DNA from: Solobacterium moorei
GTDB taxonomy: Bacteria; Bacillota_I; Bacilli_A; Erysipelotrichales; Erysipelotrichaceae
Assembly: GCF_036323475.1 (NCBI RefSeq)
Contig: NZ_AP028934.1
Span: forward strand, 2,046,001 to 2,110,000
Direction of reading: 5' to 3'
DNA length: 64,000 bases
A program made the position numbers and the translations under genes. Shown one piece after another: positions 8,516 to 62,406 of this stretch. The notes beneath the pieces were generated by a model. It saw only the letters and a list, made by a program, of their open reading frames with translations, was not told the origin of the DNA and did no database searches. How positions within the stretch are numbered: the stretch's first letter is position 1; the number at the start of each line of letters is the position of its first letter.

Positions 8516-10679
8516 AAGAATTACAGCCATTGTTGTAGCTTTTACCCTGTTAATGGGTGGAGTTTTAGGGGTGTTAAAAGTTGGTGCAAAGACAGTGTTT
8601 GCGTCAAATGAACCGCCTGAAAAATATGAAACATATTATGAACTGAAATTTGAGGATCATACTTCAGATGACACCTTTAGAGGATTTTATCATCTCGGAA
8701 AAGGAAATAAGGAAGGTCAGCCATTGAACTTTAAATTTTTCTTATCAAAATCCTTTGAAGAAAAGGGCGGTGTAGTTCTCGATAAGTATAATGAAACCTT
8801 TACCAATGAGAATATGGACAAGGTAAATCAGTTAGATGATCTAAGATATATGACAAAGAAAACTTATCCATATTATCGAATTCATAATGTAGGGACAGGT
8901 GCTTTTACAAGTATCGTTTCTCCAAGAGATAAAGATAATTACTATATTGGAGATATTACAGAAAATGCAGAAGAACGAACTGTAAAAGGAAAGAAAGCAA
9001 ATGTCATTGTCTATACCTGCCCTGTTCTACAGTTAAATAGAAATATTGAGAAAGTAACGGTTGATTATGAGGGAGAGCTTAAAGAGGAAACAAAGAACGC
9101 TATTATTGGCAGAGTAAAGGAAGCAAATCCCAATATCAACAATGTAAAAGAAATTAAGATTGTTAAAGACAAGCTGATTATTGAAACATGGAACAGATTT
9201 CATACCGGTGTACCCTACCTTGAATTACCTTTAGAGGATTTATATAAGAGAGTATCGAATGCGTCAACTCAAACAGACAATAAGGATACAAAGGATCAGG
9301 AAAGTCAGACAAAAAGTGAAGTAAAGGTCAAATATCAATATCAGGATGGAAAGGTATATAAGGAGTATTCAGCTTATTTTGATAAAAATCAGGTGATTGA
9401 CGCTTCTGATCTTGAAATGCTTCCTGATAACATGAGCTTTAATGACAATTTTGTAAGCTACAAAGTAAAATGTGATGGAAGCGATAGTATTATCCGAATT
9501 GTAAAAAAGTTAGAAAGTAATGCTCAGACGCAGACGGAAAAGCAAAAAACAGAAGATAAGGGAACTCAAACAGAGCTTAGCAAAGATGATATTTCCAAAA
9601 TGGAAAAGGAATCTAAGGAACTTCAGGAAAAACTTGATAAGCTAAGTCAGGAGATTAAGGACAAGGATAAATTAAGCGACAAGCAAAAGGAGAAAATCAA
9701 AGACCTTGAGGAAAAAATAGATAAGCTGAAGGAAAAACTTGAAAAGGGCAAAGACGATAAGGACTTATCGGCGGATATGAAAAAGGAGATAGACAAGCTA
9801 ACTGAGAAAATTAAGGAGCTTGAGAAAAAGACGAATGAGGTTGGCAAGGCTACAGTTACGCATAATCCTACTGTAACACCAATCAGCCCTATCTCCGGAA
9901 TGAAAACAGGAACAGGAAACTTTCCTCAAACATCTGTAAGTGATACGGGTAAAGGCTCATCATCACAGGATAATACAGGAAAGATTACAAAGGACACAAA
10001 TGTTGACAAGACCGATGGAAAAGAAAAAGAAGTTCGTTATCCCAATAAGCTGACACCGAAACAGCCTGCCAATAACAGCGGTCAGGATTCCTCTATGGAT
10101 GGTTCAAGTAAGAATGTAAATACCAATAAAGGAGTTGCTTCTGCTCCATCAAAGGCACGAGGAACTGTTACGGAAAATAAGGATAATGCGAACAAGGATT
10201 ATCCGATTCATCATGGAGATAGCAGTGATAAGAAAGAAACGGACATGTATTCAGCGGACGCAAGACAGTTTGTTACCTTTACTACTAAGAATGGCAAGAC
10301 TTTCCATCTAATCATCAATCACGATGAGGATAGCGAGAATGTCATGCTCCTAACAGAAGTATCAGAAGATGATCTTCTCAATATGGTTGAAAAGAAAGAA
10401 GCTCCGAAACAGGAAATTAAAAAGGAAGAACCTGAAAAAGAAGAACCTAAGCCAGTAAAAAAGGAAGAAAGCAGCAATATGGGAACCTACTTAATTCTCA
10501 TTCTTGTAGTAGCAGGAGCATTAGGTGCAGGATATTATTTCAAGGTCGTTAAGAAAAAAGAAGATAAGGAGCTTGAAGGCTTTGAGGAGGAAGATGATGA
10601 TTTCTTTTCAGAGGCAGAAGAAAGTGAAAATGAAGTAGATGAAACAGAAACAGAAGATAAAGAAGATGAATTGGAATAA
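8493..10679 (+). CDS. DUF4366/CD1107-family surface protein, long form
   Basis: A 728-residue surface protein. An N-terminal signal segment (about 8-35) comes first, then an extracellular beta-rich region. Thr-Gln-Thr motifs recur near 258, 345 and 357. A coiled coil spans about 370-455. A Ser/Thr/Asn-rich linker leads to a DUF4366-like domain (about 580-630). The C-terminal helix (about 664-684) is followed by a Lys then Asp/Glu-rich tail. Family members in other CTns are usually nearer 200-300 residues, so the coiled coil and linker look added. It may be a mating-pair contact or wall-spanning factor; that role is inference. Confidence 0.75.
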   Translation: MKTSLKNKRITAIVVAFTLLMGGVLGVLKVGAKTVFASNEPPEKYETYYELKFEDHTSDDTFRGFYHLGKGNKEGQPLNFKFFLSKSFEEKGGVVLDKYNETFTNENMDKVNQLDDLRYMTKKTYPYYRIHNVGTGAFTSIVSPRDKDNYYIGDITENAEERTVKGKKANVIVYTCPVLQLNRNIEKVTVDYEGELKEETKNAIIGRVKEANPNINNVKEIKIVKDKLIIETWNRFHTGVPYLELPLEDLYKRVSNASTQTDNKDTKDQESQTKSEVKVKYQYQDGKVYKEYSAYFDKNQVIDASDLEMLPDNMSFNDNFVSYKVKCDGSDSIIRIVKKLESNAQTQTEKQKTEDKGTQTELSKDDISKMEKESKELQEKLDKLSQEIKDKDKLSDKQKEKIKDLEEKIDKLKEKLEKGKDDKDLSADMKKEIDKLTEKIKELEKKTNEVGKATVTHNPTVTPISPISGMKTGTGNFPQTSVSDTGKGSSSQDNTGKITKDTNVDKTDGKEKEVRYPNKLTPKQPANNSGQDSSMDGSSKNVNTNKGVASAPSKARGTVTENKDNANKDYPIHHGDSSDKKETDMYSADARQFVTFTTKNGKTFHLIINHDEDSENVMLLTEVSEDDLLNMVEKKEAPKQEIKKEEPEKEEPKPVKKEESSNMGTYLILILVVAGALGAGYYFKVVKKKEDKELEGFEEEDDDFFSEAEESENEVDETETEDKEDELE

Positions 10680-49821: not shown

Positions 49822-50631
49822 TTACAAATTTTTTAATAATGATGGCGGACAAAAGATTGACGCAATAACAACTATAACAGCAATTGCAAGTAAAATTTTA
49901 TTAAATGTGACTAAGCTATTTTTCTTTTTATTGCTAGATTGTGCTTCTTCCACAGCACTTTTGCTATCATTGCTGATTACACTAGTTAATAAAGCAATAC
50001 TATTTACTAATATGAATGCTAATAGGTCAACTATTAACAACAATCTAAATATGCTTACATCTTTCATCGCATTTAATGTTGCTGACGAAAAGGATATTCC
50101 ACCCATAAAAGCAAGTACGATTGATGCAAATATACCAAGAATCGTTATATATTCACGTTCGATTACTTTCATATCTCTGTTTACTTCTTCTATGATTTTA
50201 GCTTTTACCCTATCATTACTTTTTTCTGCTATATTCCCAGCATTTTCAATTTGGTAATTTGCCAACTGACAATGGTCAAAAATCTTCACAACTATTTTTC
50301 TGCAATCACACTCAATATTTTTCGGTAAGTTTAGAGTATATTCAAGCAATGATTCAACATTTGTTAGAAAAGTTCCTCGTACACCTTCATCCATCCCATA
50401 AACTCGATTAGTTATTTCAGAATATAGCATTCTATCAAGCTTTGTATCATTATTAATATAATTTTTGAGTATAGTCATTGTCATTGACGGCATATATTCA
50501 TTGCTCTTATAACAAAGACTACTACATATTTTTTGAATTTCTTCTTTAGATATTAAGTACTCCTGTTTTTGTCTAAGCCCACATTGATCTCCTTCAGTTG
50601 TGCCCAATACATCTTTAACATCATCAGGCAT
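49822..50631 (-). CDS. Three-helix membrane protein, candidate toxin of a PanAT pair
   Basis: A 269-residue protein of no family I recognise. Residues 1-158 are soluble and mostly helical, with six cysteines up to residue 121 (20-121 region: Cys17, Cys36, Cys40, Cys108, Cys110, Cys121). Membrane helices follow at about 161-181, 194-219 and 243-262, with a charged Ser/Lys loop between the last two. ATG overlaps the stop of the Panacea gene by eight bases, so it is translationally coupled. In panAT systems the gene beside the Panacea antitoxin is the toxin, and many are membrane-active. Superinfection exclusion is the alternative role. Phage structural or lysis function is unlikely here. Confidence 0.6.
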   Translation of the reverse strand: MPDDVKDVLGTTEGDQCGLRQKQEYLISKEEIQKICSSLCYKSNEYMPSMTMTILKNYINNDTKLDRMLYSEITNRVYGMDEGVRGTFLTNVESLLEYTLNLPKNIECDCRKIVVKIFDHCQLANYQIENAGNIAEKSNDRVKAKIIEEVNRDMKVIEREYITILGIFASIVLAFMGGISFSSATLNAMKDVSIFRLLLIVDLLAFILVNSIALLTSVISNDSKSAVEEAQSSNKKKNSLVTFNKILLAIAVIVVIASIFCPPSLLKNL

Positions 50632-51076
50632 TAAAATATTTCCTCATCGAATCTATTGTTATGATACGATTTCTGTACTTAACATATGTATCTTTCCATG
50701 GGGCTTGCTCATGAGTAAGTTTCACCAAATCTGTGGCACTATAATTACTATATGCATCAACCACACTATTTATTAATTTTTTATCTTCCTTTGTAATTTC
50801 TTTATTTTCTCCAAATAACATAGTTACCTGTGGTTCTGCAACAGAAATATCACTACTTCCATACTTTTTATATACTCTATAGGCCTTAGGAACTACCGGC
50901 CCAAAATCCCAAGCTTCTATTTGATCGTCAAAACATGGAGTATGGTGTTCCTTCTTAACCAAAAAATATGCCTGTACCAAATATAAAATTTTCTGCAACT
51001 TAAGATTTGAAATTCCATACTGCTTTTCATTACTGTAATTAATGATATATTTACTAACCTCTAAAACATCATACAT
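50624..51076 (-). CDS. Panacea-domain protein (SocA/DUF4065), candidate antitoxin
   Basis: A 150-residue protein that is almost only the Panacea domain. Marks are Ile-Ser-Asn-Leu-Lys-Leu-Gln-Lys-Ile-Leu-Tyr, then Gln-Ala-Tyr-Phe-Leu, Ala-Trp-Asp-Phe-Gly-Pro-Val-Val-Pro and Leu-Thr-His-Glu-Gln-Ala-Pro-Trp. The domain is known as a versatile antitoxin that neutralises unrelated toxins, and as a proteolytic adaptor (SocA). It is the first gene after a palindrome-bearing promoter, and the partner overlaps its end. Confidence 0.85.
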   Translation of the reverse strand: MYDVLEVSKYIINYSNEKQYGISNLKLQKILYLVQAYFLVKKEHHTPCFDDQIEAWDFGPVVPKAYRVYKKYGSSDISVAEPQVTMLFGENKEITKEDKKLINSVVDAYSNYSATDLVKLTHEQAPWKDTYVKYRNRIITIDSMRKYFNA

Positions 51077-56866: not shown

Positions 56867-57604
56867 CTAACTTCCGAGAAATTTGTTGATGAAGTACTGC
56901 TGACCTTTGCCAGTAACTTTGGTTGTACGTGTAATTCGTACACTTCCGTCCGGATTGCTGAAGGTACTTTCCTTCACTTTGAATAGTCCTAAATTCATAG
57001 CTAACTGTGTTGGCATATTTCGACTTGAACCGTACTTAATTAGATATCCATTATCACGTAGCCAATCGAATAAACGTTTTTGCCCGATATCGTGTCCGTT
57101 TTGTTTGATTAGCTTTGCTAGATCTCCAATTAGTATGTTTGAGTTACTTGCTGCTACTGCATCAGCAAATAAGGCTTTAGGCTTCATTTCTTGAATAATG
57201 ATTTCCTTTTGCTTTAACTGCTCACCAGCTTTCATAAGCAAATCCGCTAGTGATTGTGGATTATGTGTAATGTCATATGCTTTCTCATCTGTTAGATACA
57301 CACCGTTCTTTCTGATTGCTGGCAAGACTTCTGATGTGACCCACTTTCTGAATTCCTTTGCATTAGGCTTATCACTTCGAAGAATGACCGCATATAATCC
57401 GCTTTCTGTGATGACAGTCGCTTCACCCTGACGCCCTAAGTTAAACTTAGCCCGTTCATCATCTTCTAATCTATTTGCGACTACTGTCGGATTACTGAGT
57501 TCTAAGACATCACATACGTCTTTCAATACCCAATAATGTTGATTGTTTAGTTGTACTGTTCGTACGGGTTGACTGTTAAAACTGAATGTTTGTAAATTGT
57601 TCAT
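56867..57604 (-). CDS. Phage antirepressor (BRO-N plus KilAC)
   Basis: A 245-residue antirepressor. The N-terminal BRO domain includes Trp-Val-Leu-Lys-Asp-Val-Cys-Asp-Val-Leu, Val-Ile-Thr-Glu-Ser-Gly-Leu-Tyr and Phe-Arg-Lys-Trp-Val. The C-terminal KilAC domain includes Gly-Gln-Lys-Arg-Leu-Phe-Asp-Trp-Leu-Arg. It counters the CI repressor and favours lytic growth. First gene of the leftward block after the oppositely directed DUF4145 gene. Confidence 0.92.
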   Translation of the reverse strand: MNNLQTFSFNSQPVRTVQLNNQHYWVLKDVCDVLELSNPTVVANRLEDDERAKFNLGRQGEATVITESGLYAVILRSDKPNAKEFRKWVTSEVLPAIRKNGVYLTDEKAYDITHNPQSLADLLMKAGEQLKQKEIIIQEMKPKALFADAVAASNSNILIGDLAKLIKQNGHDIGQKRLFDWLRDNGYLIKYGSSRNMPTQLAMNLGLFKVKESTFSNPDGSVRITRTTKVTGKGQQYFINKFLGS

Positions 57605-57621
57605 ATTTATCCTTTCTTTGA

Positions 57622-57627
57622 TATAAT
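57622..57627 (+). promoter_or_regulatory. -10 element for the DUF4145 gene
   Basis: A perfect TATAAT lies 25 bases before the start codon in the gap between divergent genes. No good -35 is seen. Confidence 0.4.
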
Positions 57628-57652
57628 TTGGCTAAATAGTGAGGTTTAGTTA

Positions 57653-58306
57653 ATGAGTAATTCTTTTAAATGTCCCTATTGTGGGGAAACATATCCATTA
57701 ATTTCTGAAAATACCTTTTATAACAGGGGTACATATCTCTCTGAAAAAATGATTGAAAGCGGAAATCCATCTTATTCTGAAAGGATTGATTCCTATATTT
57801 ATAAGTGTCCTACTTGCCATAAAGCAGTAATTTCATTTTCTGGCAGGGGAGAGCTATTACAGTTTGATTACATCCAAGTAAAGCCAAAATCATTAGCCAT
57901 CAATTTCCCTGAATATGTTCCAGCGAATATACGCACAGATTATGAAGAAGCTTATGCCATCTTGCATCTATCCCCAAAGGCTTCTGCAACTCTTTTGAGA
58001 AGATGTTTACAGGCAATGATTCAAGATTTCTGGGGCATTACAAAAGGAAATCTTTATGAGCAAATATCAGCTATCGAACCTAAGGTATCTCCATCACAAT
58101 GGAAAGCACTCAATGGTTTACGTAAAATTGGTAATATTGGTGCTCACATGAAAGAAGATAGCGATAAGATTCTTGTTGATATCACTGTAGACGAAGCAGA
58201 GAAACTATTAGCCTTTATTGAACTTATAATTAAGCAATGGTATATCGATCGTCACGAACAAGAAGAATTGTATGAGAGCATAGCCACCATAGCTGAATCA
58301 AAATAA
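57653..58306 (+). CDS. DUF4145-domain protein with N-terminal zinc ribbon
   Basis: A 217-residue protein. Zinc ribbon: Cys-Pro-Tyr-Cys (5-8) and Cys-Pro-Thr-Cys (near 52-55). The DUF4145 domain (about 95-200) has Ala-Ser-Ala-Thr-Leu-Leu-Arg-Arg-Cys-Leu-Gln and Leu-Arg-Lys-Ile-Gly-Asn-Ile-Gly-Ala-His, the typical four-helix pattern. The family is found in defence islands and fused to nucleases. Here it is transcribed against the lytic genes, so it may be expressed in the lysogen. Confidence 0.8.
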   Translation: MSNSFKCPYCGETYPLISENTFYNRGTYLSEKMIESGNPSYSERIDSYIYKCPTCHKAVISFSGRGELLQFDYIQVKPKSLAINFPEYVPANIRTDYEEAYAILHLSPKASATLLRRCLQAMIQDFWGITKGNLYEQISAIEPKVSPSQWKALNGLRKIGNIGAHMKEDSDKILVDITVDEAEKLLAFIELIIKQWYIDRHEQEELYESIATIAESK

Positions 58307-58310
58307 TTCC

Positions 58311-58502
58311 TTAATTCGATACCTCATCTAAAGCATCTTTGGTAAACAGATATTCTAATTTCCCATCATTGCGCTGCTCATAATACTTATGAACGTATCT
58401 TGCAAGGTCATTTTCTGTCCCCGCACCCCTAACACATAGAATTTCTATAACGTTTACTTTACGGATTCCTCTGAATCTATCATTTAGTTCTATTTCCTTC
58501 AT
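58311..58502 (-). CDS. Hypothetical small phage protein
   Basis: A 63-residue basic/acidic mixed protein convergent with the DUF4145 gene (four bases between stops). No family recognised. AAGGAG precedes its start, in the same gap as the start region of the next rightward gene. Confidence 0.5.
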   Translation of the reverse strand: MKEIELNDRFRGIRKVNVIEILCVRGAGTENDLARYVHKYYEQRNDGKLEYLFTKDALDEVSN

Positions 58503-58565
58503 ATCTTCTCCTTTCTTTCGTACAACCCCTTTTCATATAATTAATCTGAAAGGAGGTGAATAATA

Positions 58566-58907
58566 ATGGATTGGTTTCATTTGGTTGAGTTAGCCATCAC
58601 TGCGTTGGTTCCATCATTTTTAAGTTACTTAATTGCAATTCGCGATAAAGAGATAAAAATTAAAGATATTGAACATAAATATGAAATTGAAATTAAGAGA
58701 TTAGAGTCGGAACAAGAAGCCTTGAAGCAAAAACATCAGCATGATTTAGAAATGTTGACAGCACGTTCAAACGCCACAAAGGATGAAGTGATGAACAACG
58801 CAATGGCTGGAGCAATCGGAAATGTTTTCAACAAATTAGTGACAGGCGAAATCGAAATTTCAAAGTTACAAGAGTTGTCCAAAAAATTTCCTGCGAAAAA
58901 ACAGTAA
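58566..58907 (+). CDS. Membrane-anchored coiled-coil phage protein
   Basis: A 113-residue protein with AAAGGAGG and a TATAAT (58536-58541) directly upstream. One N-terminal membrane helix (about 5-25) is followed by a long Lys/Glu coiled coil (28-70) and a helical tail. Not recognised as a family. Rightward direction inside the leftward early region and its own promoter suggest lysogenic expression, for example in superinfection exclusion; that is inference. Confidence 0.6.
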   Translation: MDWFHLVELAITALVPSFLSYLIAIRDKEIKIKDIEHKYEIEIKRLESEQEALKQKHQHDLEMLTARSNATKDEVMNNAMAGAIGNVFNKLVTGEIEISKLQELSKKFPAKKQ

Positions 58908-58910
58908 TCT

Positions 58911-59066
58911 TTATTTTGGGGATTCAAGTAATGTCTTTTTTACTAAATTGAAGCAATCTTGAATTCCTTTTTTATACCCTTTTCCATAGTCATTTAGCCC
59001 TTCATCCGGAATTAGAGATTGAAGGCTTGCGACTAAATTAATAAGTAACTCTTGCTTTTCTGACAT
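58911..59066 (-). CDS. Small hypothetical phage protein (51 residues)
   Basis: ATG at 59066 with AAGGAGG upstream. Helical, with Asp-Tyr-Gly-Lys-Gly-Tyr-Lys-Lys-Gly in the middle. No family recognised. It ends three bases from the convergent coiled-coil gene. Confidence 0.55.
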   Translation of the reverse strand: MSEKQELLINLVASLQSLIPDEGLNDYGKGYKKGIQDCFNLVKKTLLESPK

Positions 59067-59087: not shown

Positions 59088-59300
59088 TCAAGCATTGCCG
59101 CTCAAATCATTGCGAATGTTGTTAGCGGAAAAATTCAAATCTAAATCTTTTTCATTTGTAACGATTCGAATCAATAGATGTGTTGTTTCAGAAGCACATC
59201 TTTTTAATTCGTAGCCAACAACATTTTGCAGTTCTACGTCATCAATAAAGATTCTTCCGATTCCGTCATAATCCTCAATTCTTATTTTTTGCTTGTTCAT
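59088..59300 (-). CDS. Small hypothetical phage protein (70 residues)
   Basis: The start ATG at 59300 is fixed by AAGGAGAAGG before it; a longer frame from 59354 overlaps the Cro-like gene and lacks a ribosome site. The sequence alternates beta strands (Gly-Arg-Ile-Phe-Ile-Asp-Asp-Val-Glu-Leu; Thr-His-Leu-Leu-Ile-Arg-Ile-Val). No family recognised. Confidence 0.6.
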   Translation of the reverse strand: MNKQKIRIEDYDGIGRIFIDDVELQNVVGYELKRCASETTHLLIRIVTNEKDLDLNFSANNIRNDLSGNA

Positions 59301-59350
59301 CGATATATCCTTCTCCTTTCTACTTTTGTCTAATTTATTAGTCTTTTGGT

Positions 59351-59539
59351 TCAAGAAAAAATATCGGATATCTTTAGATCAAGTGCATCAGCAATCTTTT
59401 TTAATGTTATCGCTGTTGTATTGCCGGCCTTATCAGATTCAAGATTTACTATAATCTGTCGAGATATTCCAGCCTTTTTCGCGAGTTCTTCCTGAGATAG
59501 TCCGAGCTTTTCTCGCCATTCTTTTACTTTGTATTGCAT
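59351..59539 (-). CDS. Cro-like XRE-family regulator
   Basis: A 62-residue helix-turn-helix protein (Leu-Gly-Leu-Ser-Gln-Glu-Glu-Leu-Ala-Lys-Lys-Ala-Gly-Ile-Ser, then Leu-Glu-Ser-Asp-Lys-Ala-Gly-Asn). First gene of the leftward early operon, divergent from the CI-like gene. It probably turns down the CI promoter during lytic growth. Confidence 0.88.
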   Translation of the reverse strand: MQYKVKEWREKLGLSQEELAKKAGISRQIIVNLESDKAGNTTAITLKKIADALDLKISDIFS

Positions 59540-59558: not shown

Positions 59559-59616
59559 AAAGTCTAATAAGTTAGACTTTAAATGTCAAGCAAATTAGTC
59601 AAAAAGATGTATAATA
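59559..59616. promoter_or_regulatory. CI/Cro operator-promoter region
   Basis: A perfect 9-bp inverted repeat with four-base spacer (59559-59567 and 59572-59580), and a TATAAT at 59611-59616 for the rightward CI gene, lie in the gap between the divergent regulators. A half-site-like TTAGTC occurs at 59594. Confidence 0.7.
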
Positions 59617-59638: not shown

Positions 59639-60301
59639 ATGAAATTAGGCAAAATACTAAAAGATTTTAGAAATCTTCATAAAATAAGCATGGAAGAAAT
59701 GGCGAAAAGGTGTGGAGTAAGTAAAGCCTATATAGGTTTTATTGAATCTGGAATAAACCCTTCTACCGGAAAGTCATTAGCTCCATCGATAGACACGCTC
59801 AAAAAACTTGCTAATGGAATGGGTATGTCAATTGATGATTTGATACCCCTAATGGGGGATGATGAAATCAGCTTATCTAATGAGCCCGACCCATCCAGCA
59901 TCCCAGGCATTATTCCCGTTCGTAAAATCAAGAAAATTCCTATACTTGGAACTTTATGCGCAGGAGATGGTGTATGGTGTGAAGAAAATTATGATGATTA
60001 TATATCTGTAGACGGCCACATCAAAGCAGATTTTGCTTTACACGTTCAAGGCGACAGTATGCTAAATGCAAACATCCATGATGGAGATATCGCTTTTTTT
60101 AAAAAGATAAACACCGTGGATAACGGACAAATAGCGTGCGTACTTTTAACAGAGACAAATGAAGTAATGCTTAAAAAAGTCTTATTTGCTGACAGCACTG
60201 CGATATTGCAACCCTGTAACGATGAATATAAGCCCATCATAACCAATGATTTTATTGTGCTTGGCTTGCTAAAAGGAATATATAAAGAAATAAATCAATA
60301 A
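59639..60301 (+). CDS. CI-like repressor with S24 (LexA-type) autoprotease
   Basis: A 220-residue lysogeny repressor. Helix-turn-helix at residues 5-65. The S24 domain has cleavage site Ala108-Gly109, catalytic Ser140 (Gly-Asp-Ser-Met) and Lys179 or Lys180. RecA-stimulated self-cleavage would link induction to DNA damage. All catalytic parts are present. Confidence 0.93.
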   Translation: MKLGKILKDFRNLHKISMEEMAKRCGVSKAYIGFIESGINPSTGKSLAPSIDTLKKLANGMGMSIDDLIPLMGDDEISLSNEPDPSSIPGIIPVRKIKKIPILGTLCAGDGVWCEENYDDYISVDGHIKADFALHVQGDSMLNANIHDGDIAFFKKINTVDNGQIACVLLTETNEVMLKKVLFADSTAILQPCNDEYKPIITNDFIVLGLLKGIYKEINQ

Positions 60302-60314
60302 GAGGATAGACATT

Positions 60315-60983
60315 ATGAAAAAATTACTCGGTTTTATGGAACGACTATCCAGTAAATATAATCAAAAATCAAAAAAATACGATATGGAGACTTTGGAAGG
60401 TATCAAAGCAATTCCCGTCCCTGCAAAAGACTATAATACTGGCAATGATCTAAAGGATGCTATTTGGTATATCTTACAAAGAAAAGCTACAGAGCATAAA
60501 AGAAATGGAAAGTTAGACTTAGCAATTGCTTGTTTGAGAAAATCTAACGAGCTGTCTGATTATGAAAGTAATCCTTTCCTTTTAGAAAAAGATTACTTAA
60601 GACTACCAAAATATATTGCGCTAACAGGTGATAAAGCGTTAGCTAAGTTAGAAGAAGATAATATTTATGCTAGGCATCCAGAGTTTAGAGATCGCAGACT
60701 TACAAATCTAAAATTAATTGCAAAACAAATTGAGATTTCAAAGAAAACTAAAAACGATTTAGTCCAAGTGTTTACTCATGGCAACTGTCCAAAATGTAAA
60801 AAACTTAATAAAAAAATCTACTCATTATCCGGAACATCAAAAAAATTTCCGCTTATACCTCCTGAAATATTTATTGATGGTGGGCATAATAGCACATGCT
60901 ATATCTCAGTATATTCATACTACCCAAATTTAGAAAATGACGATAAAGGGAATCCTGAAGATATAGCAGAGAAATGTTATTAA
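60315..60983 (+). CDS. Hypothetical protein after the CI repressor
   Basis: A 222-residue soluble protein. Residues 45-90 look like a helical repeat of TPR type (Ala-Thr-Glu-His-Lys-Arg-Asn-Gly-Lys-Leu-Asp-Leu-Ala-Ile-Ala). A Cys-Pro-Lys-Cys pair near 158-161 and a further Cys near 195 suggest a zinc site. No family recognised. It starts 13 bases after the CI stop, so it is co-expressed in the lysogen. It may be a lysogenic-conversion gene. Confidence 0.6.
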   Translation: MKKLLGFMERLSSKYNQKSKKYDMETLEGIKAIPVPAKDYNTGNDLKDAIWYILQRKATEHKRNGKLDLAIACLRKSNELSDYESNPFLLEKDYLRLPKYIALTGDKALAKLEEDNIYARHPEFRDRRLTNLKLIAKQIEISKKTKNDLVQVFTHGNCPKCKKLNKKIYSLSGTSKKFPLIPPEIFIDGGHNSTCYISVYSYYPNLENDDKGNPEDIAEKCY

Positions 60984-61251: not shown

Positions 61252-62406
61252 ATGAAAGAGAAATGGATTGTTGAAATATCATCTAAGACTAAAGGTGATG
61301 GCTACAGAGTTGTAGCAAAAGCCTATGAATCCGGAGCTCGTAGAACGATTGACGGCGGTCGCTTCTACGCTTCAGAGTATGGTGGTGATAAGAAGTTGGC
61401 CAAGACTGCAGCAATCATTGCGCGCAACAAACTTCAGGAAGAAATTAGCCTTAACAAACATTCAAAGCAAGCTTTCTATACCGTACAAGAATGTTATGAC
61501 AAAACTGCTTTTCTATTACAATTCTCGATCAAGACAAAAGAACGACACGACTGCTTGTACAGAGCTTTGATTCCTGAAGGTTTGAGACACAAAAATATAC
61601 TTAAAGTAACAACGGAAGATGTCCAGCGCTCCATTAATGAATACTGCAAGACACACTCGCAGAATCAAGTAAAGCACGCTATGAGTGTTTGGAGACAAAT
61701 CTATAAAGTAGCGCTGCTTTCAGAGATTCCGGTTGTTGATAGATCAGCAATGGTTGTTATTCCTAAATCAAAAGTAATCGAAAAGAAACGTGGTACCATT
61801 ATCACTCATGAGAATTTTGAGAAATTTGCGGATGAGCTACTCATGTATAACTCACACACAGCTGCAGGGCGTCATCGTTCTATAGCGATTTGGTATGCAT
61901 GCAGAATCATGCTGCATACAGGACTCAGGCCACAGGAAGTATATGCCCTATCGCGTTCAGACATTGATTTAAACACTATGCAGATACACGTATGTAAATC
62001 TGTTGGATCAGATACAAATACTAAGCGAATGATCATCCCTGTAAAGACAGAGTTCTCTAATGCTACGGTTCCGATTTCCAGTACATTAAAGCCTATACTC
62101 GAAAAATTATTATCCTGGTCACAAAGTCCTGATCTACTGTTTCTCGATGTTGACGGATTACCTTTTGAAATCAGTGCGGTGAGCACATATGTCATTAATG
62201 TCTCAAAGAAGTGTAAAGCAAAATATGGTTTTACGTTCAATCAGTACATGTTACGCCACCTATTCAGTAGCGATCTGTTTGCAGCCAACGTTAATCCTAA
62301 GGTCATCCAATCTTTGATGAGACACGCCACAGAAAATATGAGCTTGTATTATGCATATGCTACAGAAGAAGATAAGCTAAAAGCGATTGAAGATAGAGAA
62401 CTATAA
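61252..62406 (+). CDS. int: Tyrosine recombinase (prophage integrase)
   Basis: A 384-residue integrase. An N-terminal arm-binding part is followed by a SAM-like domain (75-170) and the catalytic domain. Arg226 (Thr-Gly-Leu-Arg-Pro-Gln-Glu), Arg335-His336, His358 (Met-Arg-His-Ala-Thr) and the nucleophile Tyr366 or Tyr367 are visible. The usual box II His before Arg335 is Tyr332. It inserts and, with a directionality factor, excises the phage. GGAGG precedes the start. Confidence 0.92.
   Translation: MKEKWIVEISSKTKGDGYRVVAKAYESGARRTIDGGRFYASEYGGDKKLAKTAAIIARNKLQEEISLNKHSKQAFYTVQECYDKTAFLLQFSIKTKERHDCLYRALIPEGLRHKNILKVTTEDVQRSINEYCKTHSQNQVKHAMSVWRQIYKVALLSEIPVVDRSAMVVIPKSKVIEKKRGTIITHENFEKFADELLMYNSHTAAGRHRSIAIWYACRIMLHTGLRPQEVYALSRSDIDLNTMQIHVCKSVGSDTNTKRMIIPVKTEFSNATVPISSTLKPILEKLLSWSQSPDLLFLDVDGLPFEISAVSTYVINVSKKCKAKYGFTFNQYMLRHLFSSDLFAANVNPKVIQSLMRHATENMSLYYAYATEEDKLKAIEDREL

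Follow-up and report, generated by a model that had tools for sequence, protein, structure and literature searches.

Two rightward genes in a prophage early region of Solobacterium moorei, each facing a small lytic-strand gene, as candidate defence cassettes

The stretch of DNA analysed here (the window) covers 64,000 nucleotides, positions 2,046,001 to 2,110,000, of the 2.6-Mb genome of Solobacterium moorei, and its right end is the early region of a prophage. Gene calls and family searches in the window place a cro-like gene, the antirepressor gene ant and replication genes on the leftward strand, and an S24 repressor and an integrase on the rightward strand. Two rightward open reading frames (ORFs) lie within the leftward early run (Table 1). 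A first-pass annotation of this DNA had described two rightward genes inside the leftward early region, each behind a TATAAT; both ORFs, their leftward early neighbours and both hexamers are present. The two genes do run against the lytic genes as that annotation pictured them, but they are not adjacent, since a conserved leftward gene lies between them. Each meets a small leftward ORF stop-to-stop, 58311-58502 in the first case and 58911-59066 in the second, across a gap of 3-4 bp. The palindrome between cro and cI is a likely repressor operator, and it is absent from both rightward promoters.

Table 1. Features of the prophage early region, in window positions.
Feature	Position	Strand	Remarks
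Antirepressor gene ant (BRO-N/KilAC)	56867-57604	-	Divergent 5' neighbour; slot border here and in other phage contigs
Extended -10 of the HEPN gene, TGATATAAT	57619-57627	+	Also conserved upstream of homologues
Zinc ribbon + HEPN (DUF4145), 217 aa	57653-58306	+	PD-T7-4/RAZR-related defence candidate; Pfam, phrog_1305, PADLOC, AlphaFold2
ORF of the 'RGxGT...R.V.QYW..DG.L' family, 63 aa	58311-58502	-	Proposed cognate inhibitor; ends 4 bp from the HEPN gene stop; phrog_14088, 8e-8
TATAAT of the coiled-coil gene	58536-58541	+	-35 not found
N-terminal membrane segment + coiled coil, 113 aa	58566-58907	+	Candidate defence or exclusion gene; phrog_2542, 2.2e-5; phrog_28321, 2.6e-5
Lytic-strand ORF, 51 aa	58911-59066	-	3 bp from the coiled-coil gene stop, stop-to-stop
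Small leftward ORF	59088-59354	-	Neighbouring early gene
cro-like HTH gene	59351-59539	-	Head of the leftward early operon
Perfect 18-bp palindrome, AGTCTAATAAGTTAGACT	59561-59578		Between cro and cI; candidate repressor operator
CI-like repressor (HTH + S24)	59639-60301	+	Same direction as both cargo genes
Integrase	61252-62406	+	Named from its sequence

The product of the first rightward gene contains a DUF4145 domain (Pfam, 7e-14) behind two CxxC pairs, and DUF4145 has been assigned to the HEPN superfamily, as PMC3710099 describes. In the AlphaFold2 model (mean pLDDT 90) the best aligned solved chains over residues 86-202 are HEPN proteins (2hsb with a Z of 11.0, Csm6, MntA-HepT, AbiV and RnlA), which points to the HEPN four-helix fold, with the proviso that helical bundles reach such Z values by shape. 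A Foldseek search with the same model gave no match below an E of 0.001. The complex of RAZR with GP77 (9y9c) aligns to the model with a Z of 6.5 over 163 residues, a middling value that helical folds can reach by chance; by sequence, the DUF4145 profile matches 9y9c at 3e-13. The name RAZR stands for ring-activated zinc-finger RNase. The canonical HEPN motif Rx4-6H is absent and the family has R157-x7-H165 with GN between, G160, N161 and H165 being invariant in an alignment of 101 sequences. The resulting pattern R-x2-GN-x3-H is common to the window family, PD-T7-4 and RAZR. C7, C10, C52 and C55 are invariant in the same 101 sequences and correspond to the N-terminal zinc-binding cysteines of RAZR, in whose alignment the Cys pairs are also visible. 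The protein is probably an RNase.

The PADLOC profile for PD-T7-4, which is given here without a cut-off, matches the HEPN protein at 6.5e-18 over its full length (residues 2-211 on profile positions 11-196 of 211). The protein is a distant relative of PD-T7-4 compared with two streptococcal phage homologues that have the same small partner, phi891591_0053 and Javan263_0009, which match the profile at 5e-67 and 8e-71. Javan263_0009 also matches RAZR (9y9c) at 8e-43, and a RAZR fragment matches PD-T7-4 at 3.6e-69.

The small ORF that faces the HEPN gene shares the motif RGxGT...R.V.QYW..DG with the rest of its family. In a set of 148 nonredundant DUF4145 loci, a member of this family lies at the 3' end of the DUF4145 gene, on the opposite strand, in 56 loci and anywhere else in none; 92 loci are without the partner. 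Judging from their titles, all 16 genome-collection loci with the partner belong to genera that we take to be Bacillota. The partner goes together with prophage genes: an integrase or repressor match is found in 42 of the 56 partnered loci versus 7 of the 92 partnerless ones. The repressor is co-oriented with the DUF4145 gene in 34 of the 35 loci having a repressor match, and the integrase in 25 of the 28 loci having one. All 10 phage records that contain the small gene also have an adjacent convergent zinc-ribbon DUF4145 gene; two of the phages contribute two records apiece, and Javan115 is truncated by the end of its record. A reverse search from the small ORF gave 79 loci, with a convergent HEPN gene in 32 (many of them on the same contigs as in the first search), the two genes side by side on one strand in 2, and no HEPN gene found in 45. 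Because 45 of the 79 loci have no zinc-ribbon HEPN gene found nearby, the small-gene family may have another role. The family accompanies three DUF4145 subfamilies. Among six streptococcal copies, mean dN/dS values of about 0.11 (small gene) and 0.15 (DUF4145 gene) indicate purifying selection on both. The small protein is predicted to fold as a three-stranded sheet (pLDDT 86), and a Foldseek search with this model returned no match. The operon form of the pair, a zinc-ribbon HEPN gene followed by an RGxGT small gene on the same strand, occurs at the loci L246 (3281-6967) and L250 (3291-4141), and in L246 a 928-aa gene comes after the pair.

The TATAAT of the HEPN gene (57622-57627) and that of the coiled-coil gene each lie about 30 bp 5' of the start. 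The HEPN gene promoter has the extended form from 57619, with a -35-like TTCATA at 57600-57605 and a spacing of 16. The window by itself carries no signal: TATAAT is not enriched in the 64 kb (65 found against 75 expected), and a promoter scan of the window returned 8 sites against a shuffle mean of 14.8, the site of the coiled-coil gene being unlisted. Homologue-based tests were therefore used. An exact TATAAT stands 5' of 36 of the 56 paired DUF4145 genes (controls, taken at small-gene starts, 2 of 55; shuffle mean 3.7), and a TG-extended -10 with at least five of six matches stands 5' of 28 of the 56 (controls 0 of 55; shuffle mean 2.5). When one representative is kept per 60% identity cluster, TATAAT is found in 17 of 31 (shuffle mean 2.8, maximum 7). 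The weight of the promoters comes from position and conservation, not from TATAAT frequency in the window; at the window rate the chance of a TATAAT in a given 21-nt stretch is 0.011, and both genes have one. The genome has, in front of a rightward gene in a second phage-like region, an 88% copy of the 33-bp leader of the coiled-coil gene (58533-58565, from the -10 to the start).

Other phage contigs carry a cargo slot in the early operon like the one that ant borders in the window. A 20-base promoter pattern derived from the streptococcal phage copies was searched in IMG/VR and found in 50 stretches at 51 places; part of its conservation has another cause, since the pattern overlaps the divergent lytic gene and takes in its ribosome-binding site as the complement. 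An ORF lies within reach at 48 of the places and none at 3. Sorting by eye left 42 of the 48 that fit the slot and removed unrelated genes at L269, L290, L277, L285, L315 and L307. The cargo at the 42 places comprises membrane coiled coils (16), zinc-ribbon DUF4145 variants (8), TIR-like proteins (6), Abi_alpha (5), PD-T7-4 (1) and other membrane proteins (6). When ten slot representatives were scanned, Abi_alpha was matched at 5e-53 (Pfam), and a TIR effector at 2e-19 and PDC-S47 at 5e-49 (PADLOC); at a threshold of 0.01, PADLOC gave no match for 6 of the 10, and the coiled coil was marginal. The antirepressor is directly divergent in 27 of the 42 loci, as in the window. By first match at the 48 loci, the repressor is in the direction of the cargo in 30, opposed in 4 and without a match in 14, and the integrase is in that direction in 27, opposed in 3 and without a match in 18; the seven opposed matches sit 5-10 kb upstream. 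The partner family tracks the cargo in these loci, which were selected by promoter and are free of the bias in the pairing counts of the DUF4145 cluster, whose loci were selected for having a partner: coiled coils occur with one membrane family in 6 of 6, Abi_alpha with another in 3 of 3 and TIR-like proteins with a third in 4 of 5 (distinct proteins).

Some further ORFs may be mentioned. The ungapped gene caller yields spurious ORFs and its list provides leads only; the 41-aa stretch at L234:4001-4123 is not a cargo gene and was rejected as part of a small ORF. Membrane proteins without a family match stand behind the slot promoter at L272:3645-4187, L280:6047-6514, L308:906-1373 and L311:7913-8524 and are candidate defence genes. 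Phage SM1 (L008:3677-5519) has two further rightward genes, the DUF4145-like gp14 and the TIR-like gp11, each of which overlaps a small gene of one common family (gp13 and gp10).

The second rightward gene of the window has few close homologues. Direct searches with the coiled-coil protein in phages, IMG/VR and 148 relatives returned only itself, and its relatives were reached via phrog_28321, phrog_2542 and one relative's copy. The profile relatives Javan583_0008, MissF_0065 and a copy in the genome G513 are co-oriented with the repressor, opposed to the early genes and face a small lytic-strand ORF. When the 538 window ORFs were compared with a model of the Javan583 and MissF partners, 58911-59066 ranked first, with weak similarity (E 0.02). 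Further matches of the family profile are one cousin directly after AbiLi/AbiLii (in G340), another directly after a type II methyltransferase (in G243), and membrane coiled coils of 141-149 aa in the phage slot (L275/L317). The link of this family to defence is suggestive, because coiled-coil matches carry composition bias. Judging from its context, the membrane-tethered product of the gene is probably a second defence or exclusion factor. The 51-aa ORF that faces the gene has a weak match (0.007) to a PHROG annotated as recombination directionality factor. Since Ith, the inhibitor of Tha, was mis-annotated as an excisionase, small 'xis' genes beside antisense genes may by analogy be inhibitors.

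The Tha/Ith system of the Staphylococcus aureus phages 80alpha and phiNM2 is the closest worked-out case for the window locus. As set out in PMC11087260, a prophage HEPN defence gene lies on the lysogenic strand with a small opposite-strand gene at its 3' end, and one phage keeps the inhibitor alone. The HEPN and small genes of the window are likewise convergent on opposite strands, and the logic would be alike, lysogen immunity with a lytic off-switch, the window version being proposed by analogy. Tha and Ith have no significant sequence homology to the window proteins (with profiles, the lowest E values are 0.085 with Tha and 0.89 with Ith). In 80alpha, tha is in the cI operon beside int and ith is the antisense gene (PMC11087260), whereas in the window it is the defence gene that is antisense, lying within the lytic operon behind a promoter of its own. 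The lytic operon of 80alpha also contains two antisense genes, orf11 and orf19 (L319:5525-5755 and 8517-9374). The Abi_alpha/DUF4393 gene orf19 resembles the window genes in its position within the lytic operon and shares 40% identity with the Abi_alpha cargo in the streptococcal slot, but it belongs to another protein family than both window genes.

PD-T7-4 (PADLOC PDLC04109) was found by functional selection for anti-phage systems (PMC9519451). Like the HEPN protein, which matches its profile at full length, it is a single zinc-ribbon DUF4145 protein in a mobile-element context; a small partner, as at the window locus, is not mentioned for it in the part of PMC9519451 consulted. RAZR (PDB 9y9c, RAZR:GP77, released 2025-12-24) shares DUF4145 homology and the R-x2-GN-x3-H pattern, but assembly with a phage protein is known for RAZR only. 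The window RecT was checked as a possible GP77 relative, and 9y9c did not come up. BstA (PMC8585504) is also a prophage defence with cognate self-immunity, but its self-immunity is a DNA element, according to the text of PMC11087260, and not a small partner gene. HEPN defence, prophage cargo and self-immunity are all of known kinds. A literature search found no report of a PD-T7-4/RAZR-type pairing with a conserved small lytic-strand family, and none of a slot with interchangeable cargo and matching partners, which is no proof of absence from print.

Gene layout, homology, the HEPN-type fold prediction, the conserved promoter, the orientation and the pairing of the first cargo gene support the reading of the locus as two convergent defence cassettes in a prophage early region, whose cargo would be expressed in the lysogen and each of which would have a lytic-phase off-switch (probability about 0.55). 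The first-pass annotation had already read the two genes as defence cargo in the lysogenic direction, and this gains from the PD-T7-4 match, from the repressor and integrase orientations and from the Abi_alpha, TIR, PD-T7-4 and coiled-coil genes in the slot; the gain is by homology for the HEPN gene and only by context for the coiled-coil gene. What it had overlooked are the paired small lytic-strand ORFs, and these suggest self-immunity. We infer the following course for expression, trigger, RNase activity and partner inhibition. Each cassette pairs a cargo gene in the lysogenic direction, behind a promoter of its own, with a lytic-operon gene of small size that it meets stop-to-stop. As the lytic promoter would be off in a lysogen, the cargo would be made there. 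The HEPN protein would stay inactive until a component of an incoming phage contacts its N-terminal part, whereupon it would arrest growth in an abortive infection, like PD-T7-4/RAZR and Tha. Upon induction the leftward lytic transcript would cross both cargo genes against their promoters, and the small partner proteins would be made, most likely as inhibitors that bind the cargo and keep the prophage from aborting its own lytic growth.

The cargo might also be defensive and have no protein inhibitor, the small ORFs being ordinary early genes and opposite-strand transcription alone turning the cargo off on induction. This is unlikely, yet it would fit the 45 of 79 loci in which the small family has no zinc-ribbon HEPN neighbour, and tail-to-tail packing is expected of any gene inserted in a dense operon. 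It sits poorly with one small family following three DUF4145 subfamilies, and in other phage contigs a change of cargo brings a different partner, next to an unchanged antirepressor flank. In two loci the HEPN and small genes are side by side on one strand, and there antisense control cannot account for the link. It is quite improbable that the pair is instead a toxin-antitoxin unit for prophage maintenance, with a HEPN toxin, a small-protein antitoxin and no phage sensing. The HEPN fold does resemble the toxins HepT and RnlA, and the two genes form a tight unit that is found twice on one strand. Type II pairs, however, are normally co-transcribed and the small gene here is in the lytic operon; a toxin would be unopposed in the lysogen because that operon is silent there. 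PD-T7-4, moreover, was discovered through its anti-phage effect (PMC9519451), and the strict two-gene reading of the small gene was downgraded because many copies have no HEPN neighbour.

A role of the DUF4145 protein as a DNA-binding regulator of the lysis-lysogeny switch is a shade more improbable still. The annotation of phrog_1305 as 'DNA binding protein', the zinc ribbon and the position near ant and cro would agree with it, but the HEPN structural matches and the PD-T7-4/RAZR homology do not, and the PHROGs label was set aside because this evidence is stronger. DUF4145 homologues, moreover, span many phyla outside prophage early regions, and 85 of the 92 partnerless loci have no integrase or repressor match. 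That both ORFs are functionless passengers is very improbable, as the scarcity of close homologues of the coiled-coil gene is set against the low dN/dS of the streptococcal DUF4145 orthologues and the conservation of promoter and orientation.

With the two-cassette reading, a guess on two hypothetical genes becomes a testable rule: a rightward gene with its own extended -10, stop-to-stop with a small lytic gene. The rule retrieves several unknown families along with known defence families, and for PD-T7-4/RAZR-type proteins, TIR-like effectors and Abi_alpha it supplies candidate inhibitors. It would carry the self-immunity idea of Tha/Ith beyond Staphylococcus aureus phages, to unrelated families of defence genes. 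A broader proposal is tentative and somewhat short of even odds: the RGxGT proteins would be dedicated inhibitors of PD-T7-4/RAZR-class defences, giving self-immunity beside a defence gene and counter-defence against host copies at the 45 of 79 loci where they occur by themselves, and the early-operon slot would serve temperate Bacillota phages generally as a plug-in site for interchangeable defence genes, each with its own promoter and cognate inhibitor.

Elsewhere in the window, a 222-aa gene between the repressor and the integrase (60315-60983, +) gave no family match above the cut-off; it has a weak thioredoxin-like stretch and is a candidate lysogenic cargo gene. At 49822-51076 (-), a protein with a SocA-like antitoxin domain (NCBIfam 8e-27, below the cut-off) is encoded beside a 269-aa membrane protein, and the two are a possible toxin-antitoxin pair in the prophage. 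In the second phage-like early region of the genome (L002:1524-2584; G000:C1 near 1914761), a leftward small ORF faces each of two rightward genes. The first of these genes has the leader of the window coiled-coil gene, and both products of the second pair contain a hydrophobic segment.
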